Shown here piece after piece: positions 7,324 through 63,298 of a stretch of 64,000 bases of DNA. The stretch lies in contig QHVT01000012.1 in NCBI GenBank assembly GCA_003223645.1, positions 62,001 through 126,000 of the forward strand. The letters are read 5' to 3'. Positions within the stretch are counted from its first letter, which is position 1, and every line of letters starts with the position of its first letter. The DNA is from Acidobacteriota bacterium (GTDB lineage Bacteria > Acidobacteriota > Thermoanaerobaculia > Gp7-AA8). The notes under the pieces were generated by a model. The model was not told the origin of the DNA. It was given only the letters and a program-made list of their open reading frames with translations, and did no database searches. Position numbers and translations under genes: made by a program.

Positions 7324-7656
7324 CCGCGCTGCACTGCACCGCCGCTGCGCTGCAATGCGCCACGCCCGCGCTGCAATGCACCACTCCCGCGCTGCAATGC
7401 GCCACTCCCGCGCTGCAATGCGCCACTCCTGCGCTGCACTGCACCACTCCCGCGCTGCACTGCACCGCCGCCGCGCTGCACTGCACCGCTGTCGCACTGC
7501 ACTGCAACGCGGTCGCGCTGCATTGCACCGCCGCCGCGCTGCACTGCAACGCTGTCGCGCTGCATTGCGCCACCTCCACGCTGCATTGCACCGCCGCCGC
7601 GCTACGCTGCAACGTCATCGCGCTGCACTGCGCCACCTCCGCGCTGCACTGCCGCG
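7324..7656. repeat. 21-bp tandem array A, about 15.5 units
   Basis: Degenerate units of 21 bp with consensus GCGCTGCAMTGCACCRCCGCC. Each contains the quasi-palindrome TGCAMTGCA, giving one site every two helical turns. Because 21 is divisible by three, long reading frames run through on both strands (a Cys every seven residues); I treat these as by-products. The array ends six bases before a strong promoter. Array B at 51019-51480 has the same period. Confidence 0.9.
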
Positions 7657-7662
7657 TCGATC

Positions 7663-7691
7663 TTGACAAGCGGGCCCGACGGCCCTATATC
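7663..7691 (+). promoter_or_regulatory. Sigma-70-type promoter
   Basis: TTGACA at 7663-7668, a 17-base spacer and TATATC at 7686-7691. It is the best consensus promoter I found in the window, directly after array A and about 270 bases before the start at 7961. Confidence 0.7.
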
Positions 7692-7960
7692 TTTGCCACG
7701 AAGTCGAAGGTCGTGAGATCTCCGGCTTCGGCGGCTGTCGGCGGTACGGACGTGCTGGATAGCACATCAGTTCCGTACCGGTGCGGGAGTTGAGCTTGCT
7801 CCTCCTGCCGCGGGCACTCGGGGTGTGTACACGCCTCGGGCAATCATCAACCGGAAGAATCGGCCCTGGCCGGGACTTCCAGCCGGTGGCCGCCTCGCAC
7901 TTGTCGACGAGTCGTGACGTTCCCCTCCGGCCTGACAGCTCGCAGAAGGAGAACCATGTC
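7692..7960 (+). other. Long, structured 5' leader
   Basis: About 260 bases between the promoter and the start codon without a convincing gene. A nested hairpin at 7743-7779 pairs GGTACGGA with TCCGTACC around an inner GTGCT/AGCAC stem. Further self-complementary stretches follow, such as GGTGTGTACACGCC. This may be a regulatory leader or a separate small RNA. Confidence 0.4.
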
Positions 7961-8485
7961 ATGACCGAGACCATCAACCCCACCGTTTCACCGAGCGCCG
8001 AACCGCCCAGGCTGACTCCCGAAGGGGTCATCGCCCAGCTGCGTACCGTGCGGTCGCAGATCGAAGACGTCGTGCCGTTGTCGCAGGACCAGCGCAAGCT
8101 CGTCCAACAGCGCCTGCGGAACCACGCGATGCCCGTCGTCGAGGCATCGATCAACGTCATCGGCGTGCTCGACAACGTATCGCAGGCGATCGGACAGCCG
8201 CTCGACGACGTCCGCCAGTTGCAGGACGACGTGCTCCGCTGGGAGGCCGCGGCCGAAGAGGCCCGCGCATTCCTCAAAGGCATCGAGGGAGCAAACCTCA
8301 TCCGCCGGGAGCGCCTCACGCTCCTCGCCATGCAGGCGTACGCGATCGGGACCCAGCTGGCAAAGGACCCGGCGAATGCGGTGCTCCTGCCGCACATCGA
8401 GGAAGTCAAACGGCTGAAAGGCGTCTCGCGCCGCAAAAAGGCGGCGCAGGCACCTCAACCGCCGGCCCCACCTGCGAAAACGTAG
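7961..8485 (+). CDS. Uncharacterised helical protein with basic C-terminal tail (paralogue 1)
   Basis: A 174-residue protein of unknown family. The start is set by AAGGAGAA about ten bases upstream. Residues 1-18 are Thr/Pro-rich and disordered-looking; about 20-140 are almost entirely helical and charged; then comes LLPHIEEVKR, a basic VSRRKKAAQA segment and a proline-rich end. A second copy of this plan is at 50178-50717, with matching RPHVADMKR and SRRKKATAT. Both genes have a 21-bp tandem array upstream. The basic tail suggests nucleic-acid contact, possibly with the array itself; this is inference only. No signal peptide or membrane segment is present. Confidence 0.8.
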   Translation: MTETINPTVSPSAEPPRLTPEGVIAQLRTVRSQIEDVVPLSQDQRKLVQQRLRNHAMPVVEASINVIGVLDNVSQAIGQPLDDVRQLQDDVLRWEAAAEEARAFLKGIEGANLIRRERLTLLAMQAYAIGTQLAKDPANAVLLPHIEEVKRLKGVSRRKKAAQAPQPPAPPAKT

Positions 8486-9366: not shown

Positions 9367-9512
9367 CATCGCAAGAGCAGTTAGCGATGAAGGATGAAGG
9401 ATGAAGGATGAAGGATGAAGGATGAAGGATGATCGATGAGTATTCCAATGATCGCTCATCTTCATCGATCATCCTTCATCGATCATCCTTCATCATTAGC
9501 GCTCTGGCGATG
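9367..9512. repeat. Tandem-word hairpin element, word GATGAAG
   Basis: The ends CATCGCAAGAGC and GCTCTGGCGATG are inverted. Inside, the 7-bp word GATGAAG is repeated about seven times on the left arm and its complement, CTTCATC, recurs on the right. The copy at 22129-22250 has a matching left end (CATCGCGAGAGC). It lies between the convergent methyltransferase and helicase genes. Confidence 0.8.
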
Positions 9513-11644: not shown

Positions 11645-12316
11645 GCGCGGAGGGAAGCGTAGCCTCCGAGCCTCCTGGCCTCCAAGCGATCTGGTGGAGC
11701 GGCGGCCGCTTCGGCCGCCGACCTCTCGCGAGAATCCGGCGGCCGAGGGCGGCCGCCGCTCCACAGATTCGACGTTGAGCCCGGAGAGGTGTCACCGCAC
11801 GCGCTTCCGTCCGCGCCGCACCAGCCATCGCGCTCCGCGCGTGAGGGCAGGCCCGATGAGCGGATCTGGTGGAGCGGCGGCCGCTTCGGCCGCCGACCTC
11901 TCGCGAGAATCCGGCGGCCGAGGGCGGCCGCCGCTCCACAGATTCGTCGTTGAGCCCGGAGAGGTGTTAGCGCACCCGCTTTCTCTCGCGCCGCACGAGT
12001 CATCTTGCTCCGCGCGTGAGCGCGGGGCCGATGAGCGGATCTGGTGGAGCGGCGGCCGCTCTCGGCCGCCGACCTCTCGCGAGAATCCGGCGGCCGAGGG
12101 CGGCCGCCGCTCCACAGATTCGTCCTTGAGCCCGGGAGGTGTTAGCGCACCCGCTTCCGTCCGCGCCGCACGAGCCATCGCGCTCCGCGCGTGAGGGCGG
12201 GGCCGATGAGCGGATCTGGTGGAGCGGCGGCCGCTCTCGGCCGCCGACCTCTCGCGAGAATCCGGCGGCCGAGAGCGGCCGCCGCTCCACAGATCGTCGT
12301 TGAGGCCAGGAGGCTA
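11645..12316. repeat. Four ~175-bp tandem units, each holding a palindrome and a copy of a gene 3' end
   Basis: Units start near 11777, 11952, 12128 and 12302 (periods 175, 176, 174). Each contains the palindrome GGTGGAGCGGCGGCCGC...GCTCCAC (11693-11764, 11868-11939, 12043-12115, 12218-12290) plus about 80 bp equal to the last codons and stop of the neighbouring glycosyltransferase gene. No independent gene is seen in the 672 bp. Confidence 0.9.
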
Positions 12317-13432
12317 TCACCGCACGCGTTTCCGTCCGCGGCGCACGAGCCATCGTGCGCCGCGCGTCAGGGCGGGGCCGATGAGCGGCGCGTCGAGGAG
12401 GCGATGCGTTGCCTGCACGACGAGGTTCAGCTTCGCTTCGTCGCCGCCGCGCGGCATGCCGCGCAGGAATGCGGCGGCGGCGCGGCCTTCGGCTTCGAGG
12501 TCGCGCGTGAATCCTTGCGCGATGACGGTTTCGTAGAGCGCGACGAGTTGTGCGTGCAATGCATCCGCGGAGGCGGTGGCGCGGATCGTCGACGCGACGC
12601 GCGTCGCGTCATCCGGGTCGTACGCGCGGAGCTCGCGCTGCACGGACTCGACCGTCCACGGCTCGCTCAGCGAGCGCACGCCGAAGTTGATGCGGCGCAA
12701 TCTTGCGACGTCTTCGCTGCGGACCATTCCGCCGAGGCCGGCGACGTCGCAGAGAATGACAGCGGCGCCGCTGGCCATCGCTTCGAGCGCGCATTTCGCT
12801 TTCGCGAAGACGAGATCGTAGCCGCGCAGGATCGCCTCCGGCTCGTCGACCGCGGTTCCCGCCGACTCGCCGATGACGTCGAGCGCGATTCCGGCCTGTT
12901 GGCAGGCGTCGCGAATCACGCCGAGGTGCGTGGCGGCGTGGGCGGTGTTGCCGAAGACCAGCGCGCGGTGCGGCGTCGCCGGCAGCGGCGTCTCGCGCGC
13001 CGCGAAGCGCGTGAGATCGACCGCGTTGAGAAGCACGGTCGACGCGATTCCTTCTTCGTAGAGCAGGCGATCGGCGCAGGTGTCGTCGACGGCGACGTAG
13101 CGCAGGATGCGCGGAAATTTCGGCGGCTTCGCGAGCGCGCCGCGCCAGGCGTGGCAGACGAAGATCGCCGGCGCGTTTGGAAAATGCAGCAGCGCGGTCA
13201 TCGTCTCGACGGCGCTGTTGCCGTGAATGATGTCGGGCGGCGCGCCGATCGTGTCGAGATCGTCCGTCACGGGAACCGTTCGCTTGCGGAGTTGCATCGC
13301 CGTGTCGCCGAGGTTCGGGCCGTAGACGATGGGGGAGTGGCCGCGATCGAGGAGCCACGACGCGAGATCGCGGACGTAGGCCTGCGTGCCGGCGACGTGT
13401 CCGAGGGAACCGTTCGTGATCAGGACGCGCAT
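12317..13432 (-). CDS. Glycosyltransferase, GT4-like
   Basis: A 371-residue protein with the two-domain layout of GT-B enzymes. The N-terminal half starts MRVLITNGSLGHVAGTQ followed by YVRDLASWLLDRGH (nucleotide-sugar enzyme type). The C-terminal half has VFGNTAHAATH and a donor-site-like region around KCALEAMASGAAVILCD (the E of the usual EALA/EAMA signature). The sugar and acceptor are unknown. It overlaps the stop of the upstream PIG-L-like gene by 13 bases, so both are probably translated together. Its last about 20 codons were copied into the tandem array downstream. Confidence 0.75.
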   Translation of the reverse strand: MRVLITNGSLGHVAGTQAYVRDLASWLLDRGHSPIVYGPNLGDTAMQLRKRTVPVTDDLDTIGAPPDIIHGNSAVETMTALLHFPNAPAIFVCHAWRGALAKPPKFPRILRYVAVDDTCADRLLYEEGIASTVLLNAVDLTRFAARETPLPATPHRALVFGNTAHAATHLGVIRDACQQAGIALDVIGESAGTAVDEPEAILRGYDLVFAKAKCALEAMASGAAVILCDVAGLGGMVRSEDVARLRRINFGVRSLSEPWTVESVQRELRAYDPDDATRVASTIRATASADALHAQLVALYETVIAQGFTRDLEAEGRAAAAFLRGMPRGGDEAKLNLVVQATHRLLDAPLIGPALTRGARWLVRRGRKRVR

Positions 13433-22128: not shown

Positions 22129-22250
22129 CATCGCGAGAGCTGTTAAGGATGAACGATGAAGGATGAAGGATGAAGGATGAAGGATGAAGGATGAACGGTC
22201 CAGACGCCGTTCATCCTTCATCCTTCATCCTTCATCCTTCATCGTTGAAC
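22129..22250. repeat. Tandem-word hairpin element, word GATGAAG (second copy)
   Basis: CATCGCGAGAGC at the left end matches the copy at 9367. GATGAAG words on the left arm and CTTCATC words on the right are separated by CGGTCCAGACGCCG. It lies between two genes that converge. Confidence 0.8.
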
Positions 22251-22699: not shown

Positions 22700-22782
22700 T
22701 TACTTCAGGTAACGGGCCAGAAACGGTTGCTGCGCGCTCAGCGTGCCTGCGATGAGAAGAGCGAGAGCGAACGTGGGATTTT
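22700..22782 (-). pseudogene. Remnant of a secreted-protein gene (signal-peptide fragment)
   Basis: The minus strand reads TFALALLIAGTLSAQQPFLA and then YLK and a stop: a good signal peptide plus nine mature residues. No start codon remains between the upstream stop and this stretch, and the repeat block from 22784 begins where the start should be. Probably a decayed gene. Confidence 0.3.
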
Positions 22783-22783
22783 A

Positions 22784-23070
22784 GGCGCACAGGCTCATAG
22801 GCGCATAGGCTCATAGGCGCATAGGCTCACAGCCCTGAGATAGGTTGCGCGGTTCCTCCGCCCGACGCCGCGTAACCGCGCGACCGACATCTCAGCGCCT
22901 CTCCTCTGAGCCCATGAGCCTCTGAGCCCATGAGCCTGTGAGCCCATGAGCCTCTGAGCCTATGAGCCTGTACGCCCATGAGCCTGTGAGCCCATGAGCC
23001 TCTGAGCCCATGAGCCTCTGAGCCCATGAGCCTGTGAGGCCCATGAGCCTGTGAAGCCCATGAGCCCATG
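22784..23070. repeat. Tandem-word hairpin element, word GAGCCCAT/GGCTCATA
   Basis: Left part: repeats of CATAGGCTCATAGGCG. Right part: many GAGCCCATGAGCCTCT words, roughly the complement. The middle contains an inverted pair, GGTTGCGCGGTT and AACCGCGCGACC. It fills the whole 22.78-23.07 kb gap up to the pfk stop codon. Confidence 0.8.
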
Positions 23071-23072
23071 AG

Positions 23073-24233
23073 CTAGTGCAGGAACATCGGCATCCCCATC
23101 ACCTGCGCGACCTTCGGCCGGTACTCGCTCGCGTCATAGAAGCGCGTGACGTCGACGCGTTTCTTCGCGGTGCCGGTGACGCTCAACGGGACGGCGGTGT
23201 AGCGGCCGTCGGTGACGGCGACCATGCTTCCGGGTTGTCCACGGCGCACCATGTCCGCCGCCAACGCTCCGAAGTTTTTTGCGACGATGAGGTCGAGCGA
23301 GTCGGGCGCGCCGGAGCGCATCAGATATGCGAGGCGCTGGTAGATCACTTTGTCGCGGCCGCGCTTCTCCAGAAAATCGGCGAGCATGCCGCCGACGCCG
23401 CCGAGCTTGCGCTGTCCCGAGGCGTCGGGCTCACCTGACTCGATCATCACGCCCGTCGTCGTCCGCGCACCCTCGGAGATCGCGACGACCGCGTAGTTGC
23501 TCGGATTCTCCAGCTTGTCCTTGCACAACATCTGGTACAGCTCTTCCGCGTCGAACGGCACCTCGGCGATGATGGCGCGATCGCAGCCCGCGAGATATGC
23601 GGCGAGCAGACACGTCTCGCCGGAGTTGCGTCCGAACAGCTCGACGACGAGAAAGCGCTCGTGCGATCCCGCGCTCGTGCGGAGGTCGTTGATGAGCATG
23701 ACCGAGCGCGTGACCGCGGTCGAAAAGCCGAGGCAGTAGTCGGTGCCGTAGACGTCGTTGTCCATCGTCTTCGGGATGGCGATCATCGGCACACGCTCTT
23801 CGTGCAGCCGGCGCGCAAAGGTCAGCGTGCCGTCGCCGCCGAGGGCGACGAGATAGTCGATGTCGAGGAAGTCGATGACGCGCAGCGCGGCGTGCGTAAG
23901 GTCATAGCGTCCGCGCTCATCGGGCTCGCCCTTTTCCGTTTCGAGATGCGGCGGGATGTGCTCGGCCTTGCTGATCTCGGGATTGATGCGCGACGTATGC
24001 AGGATCGTGCCGCCGGTGCGATCGATCGCGCGCGTGTTCGCGCGCGTCAGCGGCATGATCCAGCTCGAGTTGTCGGCGCTCTCGTCGGGAATGATGTTCG
24101 TCAGCGACGCCCAGCCGCGGCGTAGACCGAGAATCTCACAGTCTTCGTCGAGCATGCGCCAGACGAACGACTTGATCGCCGCGTTCAGGCCCGGCACGTC
24201 GCCACCGCCGGTGAGGATTCCGATCCGTTTCAT
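23073..24233 (-). CDS. pfkA: ATP-dependent 6-phosphofructokinase
   Basis: Glycolytic enzyme making fructose 1,6-bisphosphate. A 386-residue PfkA-family protein: ILTGGGDVPGLNAAI at the start, nucleotide motif GGDGT at 132-136, catalytic PKTMDND at 154-160 and GRNSGE further on. Gly after GGD (not the Asp of GGDD) favours ATP over pyrophosphate as donor. It is longer than E. coli PfkA (320) because of an insert around 80-115, as in the group-III enzymes. It lies 13 bases downstream of the tdh-like gene and is probably cotranscribed with it. Confidence 0.9.
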   Translation of the reverse strand: MKRIGILTGGGDVPGLNAAIKSFVWRMLDEDCEILGLRRGWASLTNIIPDESADNSSWIMPLTRANTRAIDRTGGTILHTSRINPEISKAEHIPPHLETEKGEPDERGRYDLTHAALRVIDFLDIDYLVALGGDGTLTFARRLHEERVPMIAIPKTMDNDVYGTDYCLGFSTAVTRSVMLINDLRTSAGSHERFLVVELFGRNSGETCLLAAYLAGCDRAIIAEVPFDAEELYQMLCKDKLENPSNYAVVAISEGARTTTGVMIESGEPDASGQRKLGGVGGMLADFLEKRGRDKVIYQRLAYLMRSGAPDSLDLIVAKNFGALAADMVRRGQPGSMVAVTDGRYTAVPLSVTGTAKKRVDVTRFYDASEYRPKVAQVMGMPMFLH

Positions 24234-24246
24234 GTCAGGCCCCGCT

Positions 24247-25383
24247 TCAGGGACCGGCAGGCGAAAAGCCCGCCCGCCGCAGAGCGTTCTGCTCGCCCTC
24301 CGGAAAGAAAACCACTTTCAGCGCTTCATGGCGATCGAATCGCGCAATGCCTTCGTGAAATTCATGCAACGAATCGAAGGTGGCCTGTACGACCCACTCG
24401 ACATCGAGTCCCGATCGCAACAGCGCGAGCATGCGCTGCCACGTCGAGTACATGCGCCGGCCGATGATGCCGTGCATGGTGACGCCTTTGAAAATGACGT
24501 TGCGCGTGTAGTCTTCGATGGTGACGGAGTGGCCGGCGGGGAGGCCGAGGAGCGAGAGCGTGCCGCCCATGCGGACGATCTCGAGACCGAAGTTGATCGC
24601 GGCCGACGATCCCGACATTTCGCAGACGACGTCGACTCCGACTCCATTCGTGATCGTCTCGATCGCTTTCTTCACCTCGGCTGCGGGCGTCGTGCGCACG
24701 TTGAACGCGTGGAAGTTTTCGAAGCCGCGCGTCGCGGCCCAGCGACGCGCGGTCTCGAGCGCGTGATCGCTGACGTCGGTGACGATGACGACCGACGCGC
24801 CGCTGTGCTCCGCGATCGCCGCCGACATTGCGCCGATCGGACCGAAGCCGGTGACGGCGACGCTCTTTCCGGCGAGATCGACGACCTGCGTCGTGTGCAC
24901 GGCGTTGCCGAGGGCGTCGAGGAAGGCGCCGACGCGCAGCGGCACGTAGCGCGGAAGTTTGACGATGTTCGAGGCCGGAACTCTCACGAATTCAGCGAAC
25001 GCGCCGTCTTCGTGCAGGCCGTAGATGCGCGTGCGGACGCAAATGTGTCCGTTGCCGGAGCGGCACTGCGCGCACTCGCCGCAGATCACGTGCATCTCAG
25101 CGGAGACGTAGTCGCCGATCTGCAGCGCGCCTTCGAACGCGCGCTCCGCGCCTGCGCCGATTTTCTCGACGAATCCGCAGAACTCGTGTCCGTAGATACG
25201 CGGCGGCTGGACGGAGTCCTGGATCGACGGATCCCAGTGATAGATGTGCTTGTCCGTGCCGCAAATCGCGGTCGCGGCGACGCGCACGAGCACTTCGCCG
25301 GGGCCGGGATCAGGGACGGGACAATCGCGGATTTCGGTTCCGGCGAGACCATCGGCAGGAGCGGACTTGACGACGGCGATCAT
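24247..25383 (-). CDS. tdh: L-threonine 3-dehydrogenase-like zinc alcohol dehydrogenase
   Basis: Zinc-dependent medium-chain dehydrogenase of 378 residues. The catalytic zinc site has Cys41 in CGTDKHIYHWD and His66-Glu67 in GHEF; structural-zinc cysteines are 101, 104, 107 and 115. VTGFGPIGAMSAAI is the NAD motif. The CGTDxHIYxWD stretch and HGIIGRRMYSTWQRM are features of threonine 3-dehydrogenase, which oxidises threonine to 2-amino-3-oxobutyrate. A related polyol dehydrogenase is possible. It is promoter-proximal to pfk. Confidence 0.85.
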   Translation of the reverse strand: MIAVVKSAPADGLAGTEIRDCPVPDPGPGEVLVRVAATAICGTDKHIYHWDPSIQDSVQPPRIYGHEFCGFVEKIGAGAERAFEGALQIGDYVSAEMHVICGECAQCRSGNGHICVRTRIYGLHEDGAFAEFVRVPASNIVKLPRYVPLRVGAFLDALGNAVHTTQVVDLAGKSVAVTGFGPIGAMSAAIAEHSGASVVIVTDVSDHALETARRWAATRGFENFHAFNVRTTPAAEVKKAIETITNGVGVDVVCEMSGSSAAINFGLEIVRMGGTLSLLGLPAGHSVTIEDYTRNVIFKGVTMHGIIGRRMYSTWQRMLALLRSGLDVEWVVQATFDSLHEFHEGIARFDRHEALKVVFFPEGEQNALRRAGFSPAGP

Positions 25384-25384
25384 G

Positions 25385-25500
25385 GCTGGATGGCAGATGA
25401 CAGGATGGCAGATGGCGGATGGCAGATGGCGGCCGGGGGAAGCGGGTGTTCAGGGCTTGCGGCTTCTGCTATCCGCCATCTGCCATCTGCCATCTGCATC
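25385..25500. repeat. Tandem-word hairpin element, word GGATGGCA
   Basis: GGATGGCAGATGGC words on the left and GCCATCTGCCATCT on the right. The same words form the element at 63208-63298. From 25501 to 25600 I see no gene. Confidence 0.75.
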
Positions 25501-26720: not shown

Positions 26721-27155
26721 ATGAAGTACATCGAGTCACGAACGCGTGTGCGCTACAAAGAAACCGATCAGATGGGGATCGCCCATCATTCGAATTACAT
26801 CGTCTGGTTCGAGATCGGGCGGACGGATCTCTGCCGCGCGACCGGCATTCCGTACGCGGAGATCGAGCGGCGCGGCTACATCCTCGTCGTGACGGAGATC
26901 GGCTGCCGCTATCGCACGCCGTTTCGCTACGACGACGAGGTGCTGATCCGCACGTCGGTCGGCGAGATGGGCAGCCGGCTGATGAAGTTCACATACGAGC
27001 TGTTCGACGCCGAGGGCCGCGAGAAGCGCGCGAACGGCTTCAGCGCGCACGTCTGGCTCGATCTGCAGTCGCGCAAACCGGTACGCGCCGACGCGGAGGT
27101 CGTGCGCGCGTTCGAAGCATTCCTTGCCGAGACTCAGAGGCGCCCAGGCGCATAG
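26721..27155 (+). CDS. Acyl-CoA thioesterase, YbgC/FadM type (hotdog fold)
   Basis: A 144-residue 4HBT-family thioesterase that cleaves acyl-CoA. The active-site helix start RYKETDQMGIAHHSNYIVWF has the catalytic Asp of the YbgC motif. The core ends FSAHVWLDLQSRKPVR. The last residues, AETQRRPGA, are encoded by the tandem-word repeat that follows, and the TAG stop lies inside a GCATAGGCTC word, so the natural C-terminus has been replaced or extended by the repeat. Confidence 0.85.
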   Translation: MKYIESRTRVRYKETDQMGIAHHSNYIVWFEIGRTDLCRATGIPYAEIERRGYILVVTEIGCRYRTPFRYDDEVLIRTSVGEMGSRLMKFTYELFDAEGREKRANGFSAHVWLDLQSRKPVRADAEVVRAFEAFLAETQRRPGA

Positions 27156-27263
27156 GCTCAGAGGCTCAGAGGGTCAGAGGCTCAGAGGGATCCGCTATGA
27201 GCCCATGAGCCTATGCGCCCATGAGCCCATGAGCCTCTGCGCCCATGAGCCTCTGAGCCCCTG
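27131..27263. repeat. Tandem-word hairpin element, words GGCTCAGA/GAGCCCAT
   Basis: CTCAGAGG words on the left, CCATGAGCCTATGCG words on the right; close to the block at 22784-23070. It provides the stop codon of the upstream thioesterase. Confidence 0.75.
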
Positions 27264-27268
27264 ATCGA

Positions 27269-27718: not shown

Positions 27719-27815
27719 CCGTAATTGTGAATTGTGAATTGTGGATTGTGAGCCGAGAAGGATGAGGACGCCGCTCGCGACCCCTTCACAATTCTCAATT
27801 CACCATTCTCAATCT
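27719..27815. repeat. Tandem-word hairpin element, word AATTGTG
   Basis: AATTGTGAATTGTG words on the left; TTCACAATTCTCAATTCACC words on the right. AT-rich compared with the surroundings. It lies directly downstream of the tRNA-Leu 3' end on the minus strand. Confidence 0.75.
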
Positions 27816-41451: not shown

Positions 41452-41618
41452 GAAATTGAGGATTGAGAATTGAGGATTGAGGAAATGTCGAATCGAATGC
41501 TCTGCCTCAATCCTCAATCCTCAATCCTCAATCCGGCCGACAGGCCGCGATGTGAGGAAATGTCGAATCGAATGCTCTTCCTCAATCCTCAATCCTCAAT
41601 CCTCAATCCGGCCGGCAG
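41452..41618. repeat. Tandem-word hairpin element, word ATTGAGG, with 75-bp duplication
   Basis: ATTGAGG words on the left arm and CCTCAAT words on the right. A 75-bp block starting GAGGAAATGTCGAATCGAAT (41479) is repeated at 41554. It extends to seven bases before the folK start codon. Confidence 0.85.
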
Positions 41619-41624
41619 GCCGCG

Positions 41625-42035
41625 ATGACCTCCGTCCTCATCGCCCTCGGCACGAACCTCGGCGATCGCCGCTACCACATCGCTCGCGCGATTCACGCGC
41701 TGCGCAACTTCGTGCGCGTCGTGCGCGTCAGCACGATTCGCGAAACCGCGCCGGTCGACGCTCCGCCAGGCTCGCCTCCGTTTCTCAACGCGGTCGTTGC
41801 CGGATACACGAGGCTCTCCCCGGAGTCGATGCTCGCGCAGTTGCTGAACATCGAAAAGCGCCTCGGCCGCGTGCGGCGCGGCCTGCCGAATGAGCCGCGG
41901 GTGATCGATCTCGATTTGATCTTCCACGGCGCGCATCGCCGGCACACACGCACGCTGACGCTTCCGCATCCGCGCTATCGCGAGCGGGAGTTCGTGATGA
42001 CGCCGATGCGCGAGCTGCGGCTCGACTGGCGTTAA
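41625..42035 (+). CDS. folK: 2-amino-4-hydroxy-6-hydroxymethyldihydropteridine pyrophosphokinase
   Basis: Folate-pathway enzyme that transfers pyrophosphate from ATP to the pterin. A 136-residue HPPK: LIALGTNLGDR, PPFLNAVVAGYT, NIEKRLGRVR, the metal-site PRVIDLDLIFHG and LPHPRYREREFVMTP. It is a little shorter than E. coli FolK (159) but has all the active-site segments. No ribosome site is evident because a repeat runs up to the start. Confidence 0.92.
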   Translation: MTSVLIALGTNLGDRRYHIARAIHALRNFVRVVRVSTIRETAPVDAPPGSPPFLNAVVAGYTRLSPESMLAQLLNIEKRLGRVRRGLPNEPRVIDLDLIFHGAHRRHTRTLTLPHPRYREREFVMTPMRELRLDWR

Positions 42036-50177: not shown

Positions 50178-50717
50178 TTACTTCTTCTCCACGGTTGTCG
50201 GCTCCGGCTCCGGCGTCGCCGTGGCCTTCTTGCGGCGCGAACGCGTGAATGTCCGCTTCATGTCGGCCACATGCGGGCGTACCGGCTCGCCGACGTCGAG
50301 CGTCACATAGCCCTTCGCCATCCGGTACAGGCCGCGCGCGGACTTCACCGCCTTCAGCTTGCGGCGCAGAATGGCCAGGTCGATGTGGCGGGCGAGGGCC
50401 CGCGCCTCATCGCGCACGCCGCCGTATGCCAGCTCAAAGGCGATCGCGTCGCGCAGCTCCACGCTGGTGGTGACGGACGCGCCGACGCCCGGGGCGGCTT
50501 CGGCGAAAACCGCCGTCTTCTCCAGCGCGGCCGGAGTGGTCTGCCGGGCGAGGCGAATCTCGGCCGGTGTCAGCGGCCTCGGATCTGCCTCGTCGGGAAA
50601 CTCGGCGGCCATGGCGCGAAGTCGTGCCATCCGCGCCTGGGCATCGGGGGTAAAACCGTTGGGGATCGGCTCAGGCGTCGGAGTGACGCCGTTGCCCGTT
50701 TCGGTTACGGTAGTCAT
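50178..50717 (-). CDS. Uncharacterised helical protein with basic C-terminal tail (paralogue 2)
   Basis: A 179-residue protein matching the plan of the gene at 7961-8485: a Thr/Pro-rich start (TTVTETGNGVTPTPEPIPNG), a helical core (LTPAEIRLARQTTPAALEK, ELRDAIAFEL), then VRPHVADMKR, a basic SRRKKATAT segment and a polar, proline-containing tail. Compare LLPHIEEVKR and SRRKKAAQA in the other copy. GAGAGGAA fixes ATG 50717 rather than the longer frame. Like its paralogue it has a leader of about 300 bases and a 21-bp tandem array upstream. No known family. Confidence 0.78.
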   Translation of the reverse strand: MTTVTETGNGVTPTPEPIPNGFTPDAQARMARLRAMAAEFPDEADPRPLTPAEIRLARQTTPAALEKTAVFAEAAPGVGASVTTSVELRDAIAFELAYGGVRDEARALARHIDLAILRRKLKAVKSARGLYRMAKGYVTLDVGEPVRPHVADMKRTFTRSRRKKATATPEPEPTTVEKK

Positions 50718-51018
50718 GGGATTCCTCTCGATCTTTCTTGTTTGTTGGTTGATGTTCGTTGGCTTCGTCACGTCAAGCGGACTTGGAGATCGCCGTAATT
50801 AATTCGGAGTCATATACTTACCTGCCTTTCTCTCGACATTCCTCTGAGCACGATGTTGCGAGAGCCCCAATGTGCGCCGGACTGTCATGGCAGTCAATGG
50901 ACGAGTTTCCAAAGAAATAGTACGCCCATTATTTCTTTCTGTTACCAAACGGTGAACTCTGCTAAACGCTCGGTCTGTAAGACCAGGAAGGCTCCAAATG
51001 AGAGGAAGAAGATCGCCT
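50718..51018 (-). other. Leader region of paralogue 2, with hairpins
   Basis: There is no convincing gene here. AAAGAAATA and TATTTCTTT form a perfect 9-bp stem at 50911-50938, and GACTG/CAGTC pairs at 50880-50895. AT content is higher than in the flanks, as expected for a promoter region, but I see no clear -35/-10 pair. Confidence 0.35.
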
Positions 51019-51480
51019 GGCGAACGAAGGCACCACGCTTGCATACGAGGCAAATTCGCTGACCAACGAAGCAAACTCACTGCGAAGTGAAGCAAACTCA
51101 CTGAAGATCTAAGCGAGCTCGCTGAGATCTGTCAGCAAACTCGTTGACCAACGAAGCAAGCTCGCTTCGATCGGAAGCAAACTCGTTGAAGATCCAAGCA
51201 AGCTCGCTCAGATCTGTCAGCGAGCTCGTTGACGAACGAAGCAAGCTCGCTTCGACCGGAAGCAAACTCACTTCAGGACGAAGCAGATTTGCTTCGCTTG
51301 TCAGAGAGTTTGTTTGGCGTGGAAGCGGGCTCGCTTCGCTTGCCAACGAGTTTGCGCCGGCGGGAAGCGGGCGCGCTTCGCCAGCCAGCCTTCGTGAATC
51401 CATGGTCTCAATGGTCGCCAGGCAACGACGTTGCGTCGCGAGGCAATGGTCATTGCACGCGAGGCAAGGTTGAATGCACT
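51019..51480. repeat. 21-bp tandem array B, about 20 units
   Basis: Units of 21 (rarely 22) bp with consensus CGAAGCAAGCTCGCT; several contain the perfect inverted repeat CGAAGC-N6-GCTTCG. The last three units (51411-51477) are a different subtype, GCGAGGCAATGGTCATTGC, also palindromic. Translated frames read heptads such as EASSLRS but no gene is convincing. Same period as array A at 7324-7656. Confidence 0.88.
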
Positions 51481-54211: not shown

Positions 54212-55740
54212 GAGTACGAGCCCTCCAGCCACACTTCATAACGGTCGCCGGGCGCGTCGCTGACTTTGAACCGCTCCGAGACCTCGACGCCGGCGACCCA
54301 GACGATCTCGTCGTTCCACACGAGGAGAGGGATGCGGTCGCGCAACTCCGCGGCGATTTTACGATCAATCAGGAAATCCTTCAGCTTTTTGGGAGCGGGG
54401 GAGCCGAGGGGGTGGAAGCGGTCGCCGCGGCGGCGGTTGCGGATGGTGAAGGAAGGCGACGCACCGCGTTGCAGCTGAACGAGCTGTGTCAGCCCGAGCG
54501 TGAGCGAGGGAGCTGGGGCTCGGGTGGTGGTGCGAGGCTCATGCAACGCGCCGCGTTGCAGTTGAACGAGCTGTGTCATCCCGAGCGTGAGCGAGGGAGC
54601 TGGGGCTCGGGTGGCGGTGCGAGGCTCATGCAACGCGCCCCGCCCACCCAGGTCCCTCGCTACGCTCGGGATGACATGCATCGTGATGCCGAGTTGCGGG
54701 ATGTCTATCGGTGAATCCAGCGCGACACTCACTTCAAACTCCGGCATCGCGGAGGGCACGCGGCGCAGCACGAGCGCCTCGTTGCGGCGGATCAGCTCGA
54801 GGTCTTTCGTCACGCTGACGCGTTTGATGGCATCGACTTCATTTGCAAGGCGTGCGAGATCGTTTGCCGAAACGTCGCGCGCCGAAGCATCGAGGCGATG
54901 GATGTGGCGATGGAGGAGCGCCTGGCGCAGCCAGGGATCGTCGGGCCAGTGGCGAAAGCGCGTCTCGTTTTCCTCGACGTCGACGCCGTGAGATTCCGCG
55001 TCGTCGACCGCGCGCTCGAGGATCGGCCACTGCTGCCGCGCCTGCGCGGCGATCGCGGCGAGGTTGTCGACCGCGCCGAGCTCCCGCACGAGAACGCGTA
55101 TGCGATTGCGCAGGAAGCGCGGATCGTCGTTCGAGCGATCGTGGCGCGGCGTGACGTTGCGCGCGCGCAGAAACGTCTCGATCTCCTCGCGCGTGACGTC
55201 GAGTAGCGGCCGCACCACGCCGTCGCCGCGCACCGCGTGAATCCCGCGCAGCCCGCCGATGCCGCTGCCGGTCAGGAGTCGCATGAGCACCGTCTCGGCC
55301 TGATCGTTTTTCTGATGGGCGGTGGCGATGAAGGCAATGGTGGAGTGGTGCGCGCCTCCGGCGCGCCTTTCGGAAAGCGCGCCGGAGGCGCGCACCACTC
55401 GATCTCGAATCTCGAAGAGCTTCGCGTAGCGAACCTCGCGCGCTGCCGCTTCGATTCCGCGATGCTTTACGCGCTCCTCGTCGAGGGTGCCGTCCGCGAC
55501 ACGCAGCTCGACTTCGACCGATGCGCACAGCTCGCGCACGAACTGTTCGTCGTCATCCGACTCTGCTCCACGTAGATGATGATTCACGTGCGCGGCGATG
55601 ATCGTGAATCCGTCATCGCGCAGTTCCGCGAGCGCCAGCAGCAGCGCCGTCGAGTCCGCGCCTCCCGACACCGCCGCCAACACTGCACAAGGTTCGATGC
55701 AGTGCTTTTCGAAGAAGCGGCGGACGGAATCGGGGAGCAT
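54208..55740 (-). CDS. tilS: tRNA(Ile)-lysidine synthase, with two repeat-derived inserts
   Basis: Modifies C34 of tRNA-Ile(CAU) to lysidine. The PP-loop ATPase motif AVSGGADSTALL is near residue 24; AAHVNHHLRG, TAHQKNDQAETVLMR and RPLLDVTREEIE follow, then the TilS C-terminal domain (RNRRRGDRFHPLGSPAPKK). At 510 residues it is longer than usual (about 430-450) because two palindromic repeats are translated in frame: about residues 114-133 (RASGALSERRAGGAHH) and about 350-425 (PSVARDLGG with two 29-residue units). The PP-loop motif itself is intact. Confidence 0.93.
   Translation of the reverse strand: MLPDSVRRFFEKHCIEPCAVLAAVSGGADSTALLLALAELRDDGFTIIAAHVNHHLRGAESDDDEQFVRELCASVEVELRVADGTLDEERVKHRGIEAAAREVRYAKLFEIRDRVVRASGALSERRAGGAHHSTIAFIATAHQKNDQAETVLMRLLTGSGIGGLRGIHAVRGDGVVRPLLDVTREEIETFLRARNVTPRHDRSNDDPRFLRNRIRVLVRELGAVDNLAAIAAQARQQWPILERAVDDAESHGVDVEENETRFRHWPDDPWLRQALLHRHIHRLDASARDVSANDLARLANEVDAIKRVSVTKDLELIRRNEALVLRRVPSAMPEFEVSVALDSPIDIPQLGITMHVIPSVARDLGGRGALHEPRTATRAPAPSLTLGMTQLVQLQRGALHEPRTTTRAPAPSLTLGLTQLVQLQRGASPSFTIRNRRRGDRFHPLGSPAPKKLKDFLIDRKIAAELRDRIPLLVWNDEIVWVAGVEVSERFKVSDAPGDRYEVWLEGSYS
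54466..54690. repeat. In-frame repeat insert in tilS: 87-bp direct units plus GTCATCCCGAGC-type palindrome
   Basis: Two 87-bp units start at 54466 and 54553 (GCGTTGCAGCTGAACGAGC, with one- or two-base differences); a partial third runs to TCGGGATGAC. 87 bp is 29 codons, so the frame is kept. Confidence 0.88.
55343..55400. repeat. In-frame palindrome in tilS (perfect 24-bp arms)
   Basis: GAGTGGTGCGCGCCTCCGGC opens the left arm; the right arm is its exact complement, with loop CTTTCGGAAA. It lies just before the TAHQKND motif. Confidence 0.92.
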
Positions 55741-63207: not shown

Positions 63208-63298
63208 AATGGATGGCGGATGGCAGATGGCGGATGGCAGAAGAGTTATTTCCACGCTATCCGCCATCTGCCATCCGCCATCTACCATCTGCCATCTA
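63208..63298. repeat. Tandem-word hairpin element, word GGATGGCA
   Basis: GGATGGCGGATGGCAGATGG words on the left; CCATCTGCCATCCGCC words on the right. Matches 25385-25500. The lipA stop codon lies inside the final CCATCTA word. Confidence 0.8.

Follow-up and report, generated by a model that had tools for sequence, protein, structure and literature searches.

Phased 21-bp repeat arrays accompany a lineage-restricted family of predicted helical proteins in soil Acidobacteriota

Analysis of a 64,000-nucleotide stretch of Acidobacteriota (Thermoanaerobaculia) DNA (hereafter the window; C10:62001-126000 of G000, a genome of 6.4 Mb in 51 contigs that is 97% complete) identified two members of a protein family, each encoded downstream of its own array of 21-bp repeats. 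The family is lineage-restricted and is contained in none of the annotation libraries that were searched, and its arrays turn over faster than the proteins. Taken together, our findings suggest that numerous protein-DNA pairs of an apparently new type exist in parallel. The features of the two window loci are as follows.

7324..7652, plus strand: 21-bp array, unit CCGCGCTGCAYTGCACCGCCG, approximately 16 copies
7663..7691, plus strand: sigma70-like promoter TTGACA-N17-TATATC, directly after the array
7692..7960, plus strand: leader, conserved, with covarying RNA structure in the 7961 subfamily
7961..8485, plus strand: second paralog gene, 174 aa
8491..8521, plus strand: terminator-like hairpin 3' of the stop codon
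50068..50093, minus strand: terminator-like GC-rich hairpin 3' of the stop codon, with which cassettes of the family usually end (from sequence and fold)
50178..50717, minus strand: paralog gene, 179 aa, ATG start with Shine-Dalgarno sequence
50718..51020, minus strand: leader, from the array to the start codon
51021..51385, minus strand: 21-bp array, approximately 17 unit positions, spacing 21/42/43 bp, core GAAGYRARYYYGCTTC
51417..51479, no strand assigned: two more 21-bp repeats of different sequence, CGCGAGGCAAGGGTCAATGCA, at the outer edge of the array

It can be seen that the gene at 50178 has a tandem array upstream on its own strand, just as the preliminary description of this DNA had it. 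The array begins some 300 bp upstream of the ATG (Tandem Repeats Finder rows), and the leader holds a single weak sigma70-like match, TTCACC-N17-AATAAT, at 50956-50928. About 20 units containing CGAAGC-N6-GCTTCG had been proposed. This motif occurs three times exactly and five times with at most one mismatch, but the usual unit has a looser, GAAGYRARYYYGCTTC-like core, and the count is therefore closer to 17 than to 20. Leucine-rich heptads appear in open frames on both strands of the array; a protein-coding repeat is nevertheless excluded by the periods of 22, 41 and 43 bp found elsewhere.

At the 7961 locus, the position of the promoter after the array is retained in the relative G009_C237 (TTGAAA-N17-TATGTT). 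A universal sigma70 promoter following the array was not significant over all loci, good matches being confined to a small subset. The leader of the 7961 subfamily is conserved across genera, with changes on both sides in 17 of 76 predicted pairs and a consensus energy 7.6 sd below that of column shuffles; since one alignment served both for structure prediction and for the pair-change count, the count is supportive rather than conclusive. No Rfam family matched this leader. Matches of the arrays themselves to Rfam were to miRNA-precursor models; they lay far below the gathering scores, an outcome that long hairpins would be expected to give, and were rejected.

The two window proteins had been proposed to be paralogs with their parts in the same order, and this is borne out. 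The 50178 product consists of a Pro/Thr-rich start, a helical core, PHVADMKR, SRRKKA and a polar tail, and it aligns with the 7961-8485 product over the full length at 27% identity (BLASTP, E 0.005 as a single pair). Profile-profile comparison of the two, a negative outcome of which had been named as grounds for refutation, was significant (probability 97.8%, E 8.8e-13), and a whole-genome search with the 50178 protein as sole query matched the 7961 locus at E 1.5e-6.

A whole-genome search with one window protein found 22 places in G000. A family profile built from 16 members gave 33 matches in this genome, 65 in G007, 55 in G008, nine in G009 and two in G017; the 13 remaining genomes of this GTDB family gave none. 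Across a phylum-wide sample of 396 genomes, in which up to eight candidates were scored per genome, matches at E 1e-8 were confined to the three large holders. The family was detected in two genera only, and an initial search of genome contigs with another subfamily as the query gave no match. The named related loci come from Acidobacteriota MAGs, partly labelled Thermoanaerobaculia, and G007-G009 are MAGs. Contig breaks are frequent inside or just upstream of family genes (G000 C46 start, C22 end and C15 end; the ends of G007 C11, C85, C81 and C54), as expected from near-identical arrays, and the copy numbers may therefore be underestimated.

Family proteins are approximately 170-220 aa long and predicted to be helical, with a basic Lys/Arg-rich C-terminal region; some tails are Lys/Ala-rich and resemble histone H1. 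There was no family match above chance level in Pfam, NCBIfam, PADLOC or PHROGs, with weak matches in PADLOC and PHROGs only, and no match in the PDB, plasmid records or viral contigs. Profiles from Pfam, NCBIfam and the PDB revealed no known DNA-binding domain, and those from Pfam and NCBIfam no nuclease or transposase domain. Structure prediction with AlphaFold, based on one sequence and on eight, gave pLDDT values of 49 and 48 and no confident fold. Assignment to a known anti-phage defence or phage family was also considered and rejected, the PADLOC and PHROGs matches being at chance level and none being found in viral contigs. In a quick tree, proteins from different genomes interleave and recent lineage-specific duplicates are present. 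The dN/dS values of approximately 0.17-0.56 indicate purifying selection on the proteins.

We examined 115 family loci for repeats beside the gene. An upstream tandem array with a period of 20-23, 40-44 or 61-67 bp was present at 92 of the 107 loci that have at least 1.5 kb of upstream sequence, and several of the array-less loci reach a contig end or have degenerate arrays. Within 850 bp of the gene, an array was found upstream at 48 of 81 loci and downstream at one of 81. The arrays comprise about 3-30 units. When steps of up to two bases either side of a freely found period were allowed, consecutive units were spaced by 21 bp in 696 of 810 cases, by 22 in 95 and by 20 in 17. Since three does not divide periods of 22, 41 or 43, coding repeats are excluded as the basis of the arrays; a period of 21-22 bp fits two turns of B-DNA.

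Over the loci as a whole no sequence is common to the units (examples are TAGATCGCGATCTA, CAGTTCNNGAACTG and TGAGTACCGACTCA). Unit palindromy exceeds that of column shuffles (mean z 1.98, with 47% above 2), and the conserved positions are contiguous, typically forming a dyad core of 13-17 bp, with a variable spacer of 4-8 bp, as expected for dimer sites with spacers. The preliminary description had held both the period and the array-gene distance to be constant while the sequence changes. An array of the 21-bp class at nearly every paralog agrees with the former, but not the latter, since the distance from array end to start codon ranges from approximately 45 to 1500 bp across the family, with many loci near 830 bp.

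The leaders of approximately 830 bp contain a second ORF that is conserved, encodes about 200 aa with a basic N-terminal part and lies about -770 to -20 from the gene (L077, L112-L117, L124 and G000 C21a/C51/C8a/C40); it has no known domain in Pfam or NCBIfam. The order of the cassette is thus phased 21-bp array, leader (sometimes with this second ORF), gene and terminator hairpin, a strong GC-rich hairpin being found 3' of the stop codon at nearly every locus looked at. Recent duplicates are homologous from the outer array edge, which is sharp, to approximately 90-110 bp past the stop codon (-465 to +772 for G008_C1/C37, -728 to +647 for G007_C100/C3), and array, leader, gene and terminator are therefore copied together. 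At one locus, L122 (G008:C147), the gene is closest to the G007_C75 type and the leader is of the 7961/G009_C237 type, and leader and gene thus seem to recombine.

Arrays of the 21-bp class are not confined to the cassettes. We found 14 in 800 kb of G000 and 18 in 400 kb of G007, which by a very rough extrapolation from the sampled sequence corresponds to 110 and 290 arrays per genome, respectively. Most had no family gene nearby and were positioned in intergenic gaps. A small control on relatives without the family, drawn from the surroundings of ABC transporter genes, yielded 0 against 1 array per 103 kb. The gene-less units of G000 had a mean score of 36 against gene-linked units of the same genome and 13-20 against those of other genomes; for G007, where about half of the gene-linked arrays entered the comparison, the values were 29 and 12-23. 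A score of at least 22 (95% of shuffled units score 21 or less) was reached against the own genome by 83% of G000 and 71% of G007 arrays, and against other genomes by 6-47%. Both window units have partner arrays elsewhere, at C32:1735-1913 and C5:22992-23318, the latter with 76% over 325 bp.

Gene-less arrays lay in 15 convergent, 10 tandem and 2 divergent gaps, compared with 26, 77 and 47 among background gaps of at least 250 bp, all based on simple gene calls made for this analysis. Convergent gaps are therefore favoured and divergent gaps avoided (p 7e-5 and 0.01). Two G007 arrays, C1:226959 and C1:230450, are absent from the collinear G008 sites, and the first is also absent in G009; neither of these two empty sites displayed a target duplication or a terminal motif.

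The proposal that each protein recognises its own repeat is favoured by the match between gene-less arrays and gene-linked units of the same genome, and disfavoured by the loss of pairing below approximately 80% protein identity. Protein pairs more than 80% identical mostly share units, whereas at 60-80% identity only about 5% do; G008_C132/G008_C194 (91% protein identity, unrelated arrays) was left out of this comparison because the second gene looks 5'-truncated. Such a loss is hard to reconcile with strict recognition, unless few residues set the specificity, and because pairing decays so quickly with protein divergence, we can do no more than infer own-repeat recognition. A protein that reads the 21-bp phasing, and not the letters, would also fit the fast loss of pairing. 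Conservation of the arrays between relatives, likewise anticipated, holds in part: the unit is kept in some cross-species pairs (G009_C51/G017_C10 and G007_C42/G008_C107) and other pairs are unrelated, as between the 7961 locus and a G009 relative, where gene and leader share 82% DNA identity between genera and the array is unrelated.

Several other repeat types were observed. Pairs of tandem arrays with a 7-bp unit, in inverted orientation (e.g. GATGAAG ... CTTCATC), would form long hairpins; their heptamer varies by locus, and they lie at the following window positions.

9386-9494: 7-bp array pair
22145-22243: 7-bp array pair
25382-25497: 7-bp array pair
27723-27813: 7-bp array pair
41455-41534: 7-bp array pair
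63212-63298: 7-bp array pair

These pairs, found also in members of the GTDB family without the 21-bp protein family, therefore have the appearance of a repeat class that is independent and extends across the clade. Arrays of 8/16 bp with units of the GAGCCTA/TGAGCCCA type occur on both strands at window 22782-23073 and 27129-27264, with similar arrays at G000 C21:373516 and C21:110779. An 87-bp repeat at window 54459-54639 contains CCCGAGCGTGAGCGAGGGA...GGCTCGGGTGGCGG, words that form a 97-bp repeat beside a gene-less array of the 21-bp class at G000 C21:184165. A 175-bp unit with many GGCGGCCGCCGCTCCAC inverted repeats occurs four times at window 11688-12388 and resembles a hairpin 3' of another family gene, G000_C47, and a 75-bp duplication is present at 41478-41627.

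We favour a model in which each protein is both an autoregulator, through binding to its phased array, and active at dispersed cognate arrays, and place the chances of this model at about even. In its favour are the constancy of the period under changing sequence, the contiguous palindromic cores, the match of gene-less arrays (partners of both window units among them) to gene-linked units of the own genome, the copying of whole cassettes and the purifying selection on the proteins. According to this model the protein, probably as a dimer, would bind the palindromic core of its own unit, and, with two helical turns between neighbouring sites, dimers could stack on one face of the DNA, with cooperative binding or bridging as possible consequences. 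Occupancy of the upstream array would control the gene's own promoter; the promoter directly after the array in the 7961 subfamily is consistent with such autoregulation. Binding to the dispersed cognate arrays would give one set of nucleoprotein sites per paralog, such that dozens of parallel protein-array pairs might mark the chromosome. Homogenisation and replacement of the arrays would outpace change in the protein, with new pairs following cassette duplication. The main doubt about the model comes from the fast loss of pairing with protein divergence; in addition, no known DNA-binding domain and no confident fold emerged, good promoter matches follow the array at only a few loci, and the matching gene-less arrays could be mere array copies to which no protein is bound. 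An extension, in which the orthogonal pairs form a chromosome addressing system, is put forward tentatively, and we consider it rather doubtful: each paralog would draw its dispersed arrays together in a nucleoprotein cluster of its own, and cassette duplication and then rapid array replacement would supply new addresses.

An alternative that overlaps in part with the binding model, and that we regard as a serious if somewhat improbable candidate, is a selfish population like that of REPIN/RAYT, with the gene-linked array as the master copy and a protein that aids maintenance or movement and has no host role. The two G007 arrays missing from collinear G008 sites (one also from G009), the sharp outer edge with which cassettes duplicate, the distance of gene-less arrays from promoters (15 convergent, 10 tandem and 2 divergent gaps) and the very uneven copy number (65, 55, 33, 9 and 2, with none in 13 other family members) all point in this direction. 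Movement is harder to square with a protein that has no nuclease or transposase domain and with two empty sites without target duplication or terminal motif, and a need for mobility does not account for the strict two-turn period.

The same period bears on the two remaining explanations. If the arrays acted as RNA, with transcribed hairpin arrays binding the basic protein or controlling transcript ends, then palindromic units, array positions at the 3' ends of converging genes and the structured RNA of the gene-adjacent leader in one subfamily would all be accommodated. We nevertheless find this unlikely, as the fixed 21-22 bp spacing, with drift hardly above one base, points to DNA helical phase, and the hairpins formed by many units are weak, with a mean MFE z of only -1.3. 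Passive satellite growth by slippage beside a duplicating gene family, without function and with stray copies as the matching arrays, could produce arrays that are homogenised within a locus and unrelated between loci, in genomes where other simple repeats (7-8 bp) are common. Slippage, though, has no reason to yield 21n bp of any sequence, nearly always 5' of the gene, nor palindromic cores that are contiguous beside variable spacers, and we judge this explanation very improbable.

If the proteins do read the arrays, they would offer a natural set of more than 100 diversified protein-DNA pairs in a new helical family, from which recognition rules and helical-phase cooperativity could be derived comparatively; the system would also provide a bacterial example of satellite-like arrays served by dedicated proteins. 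Selfish arrays would instead represent a second kind of repeat population with its own gene, and no recognisable transposase. Either way, the system shapes the intergenic DNA of these soil Acidobacteriota and is contained in none of the searched annotation libraries. We found no paper on 21-bp arrays, bacterial satellites or Thermoanaerobaculia repeats in a literature search that covered few subscription papers and preprints, and an earlier description is possible.

Among known systems, iteron-Rep plasmids have direct repeats of approximately 20-22 bp that recur every two turns upstream of the Rep gene, and Rep protein and iterons are mutually specific. Phased direct repeats about two helical turns apart are likewise found upstream of the gene here. 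In contrast, no Rep winged-helix domain was found (Pfam, NCBIfam, PDB) and no plasmid record matched, and there are dozens of chromosomal copies together with matching gene-less intergenic arrays. In ParB-parS and ParR-parC a small autoregulating protein binds clustered sites and a nucleoprotein cluster forms. Clustered sites and a small protein are shared, with binding and autoregulation being putative here; no ParB, RHH or ParA-type domain was found in the family (Pfam, NCBIfam), and many unit types replace the one site set per replicon. BIME/REP repeats are palindromic and intergenic, preferably at gene 3' ends, and the arrays are also palindromic, intergenic and biased to gene 3' ends, but they lack a fixed consensus; what is conserved is the period of 21 bp, and the unit types are linked to a protein gene.

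In REPIN/RAYT, several gene-repeat pairs coexist per genome, each repeat type lying beside its gene and dispersed extragenically; the RAYTs are IS200-like tyrosine transposases, with one copy per type, and the repeats are REP doublets (PMC3116915). The present family falls outside this class in that a Y1 (IS200-like) tyrosine transposase domain was not found (Pfam, NCBIfam), in that the single gene copy is replaced by 33, 65 and 55 paralogs, some of them near-identical recent duplicates, and in having phased 21-bp arrays of about 3-30 units rather than doublets. What is shared is that one genome carries cognate repeats both beside the gene and scattered through its extragenic DNA. In logic, REPIN/RAYT is the nearest known system, and the evolution of the arrays seems to resemble that of its repeat populations.
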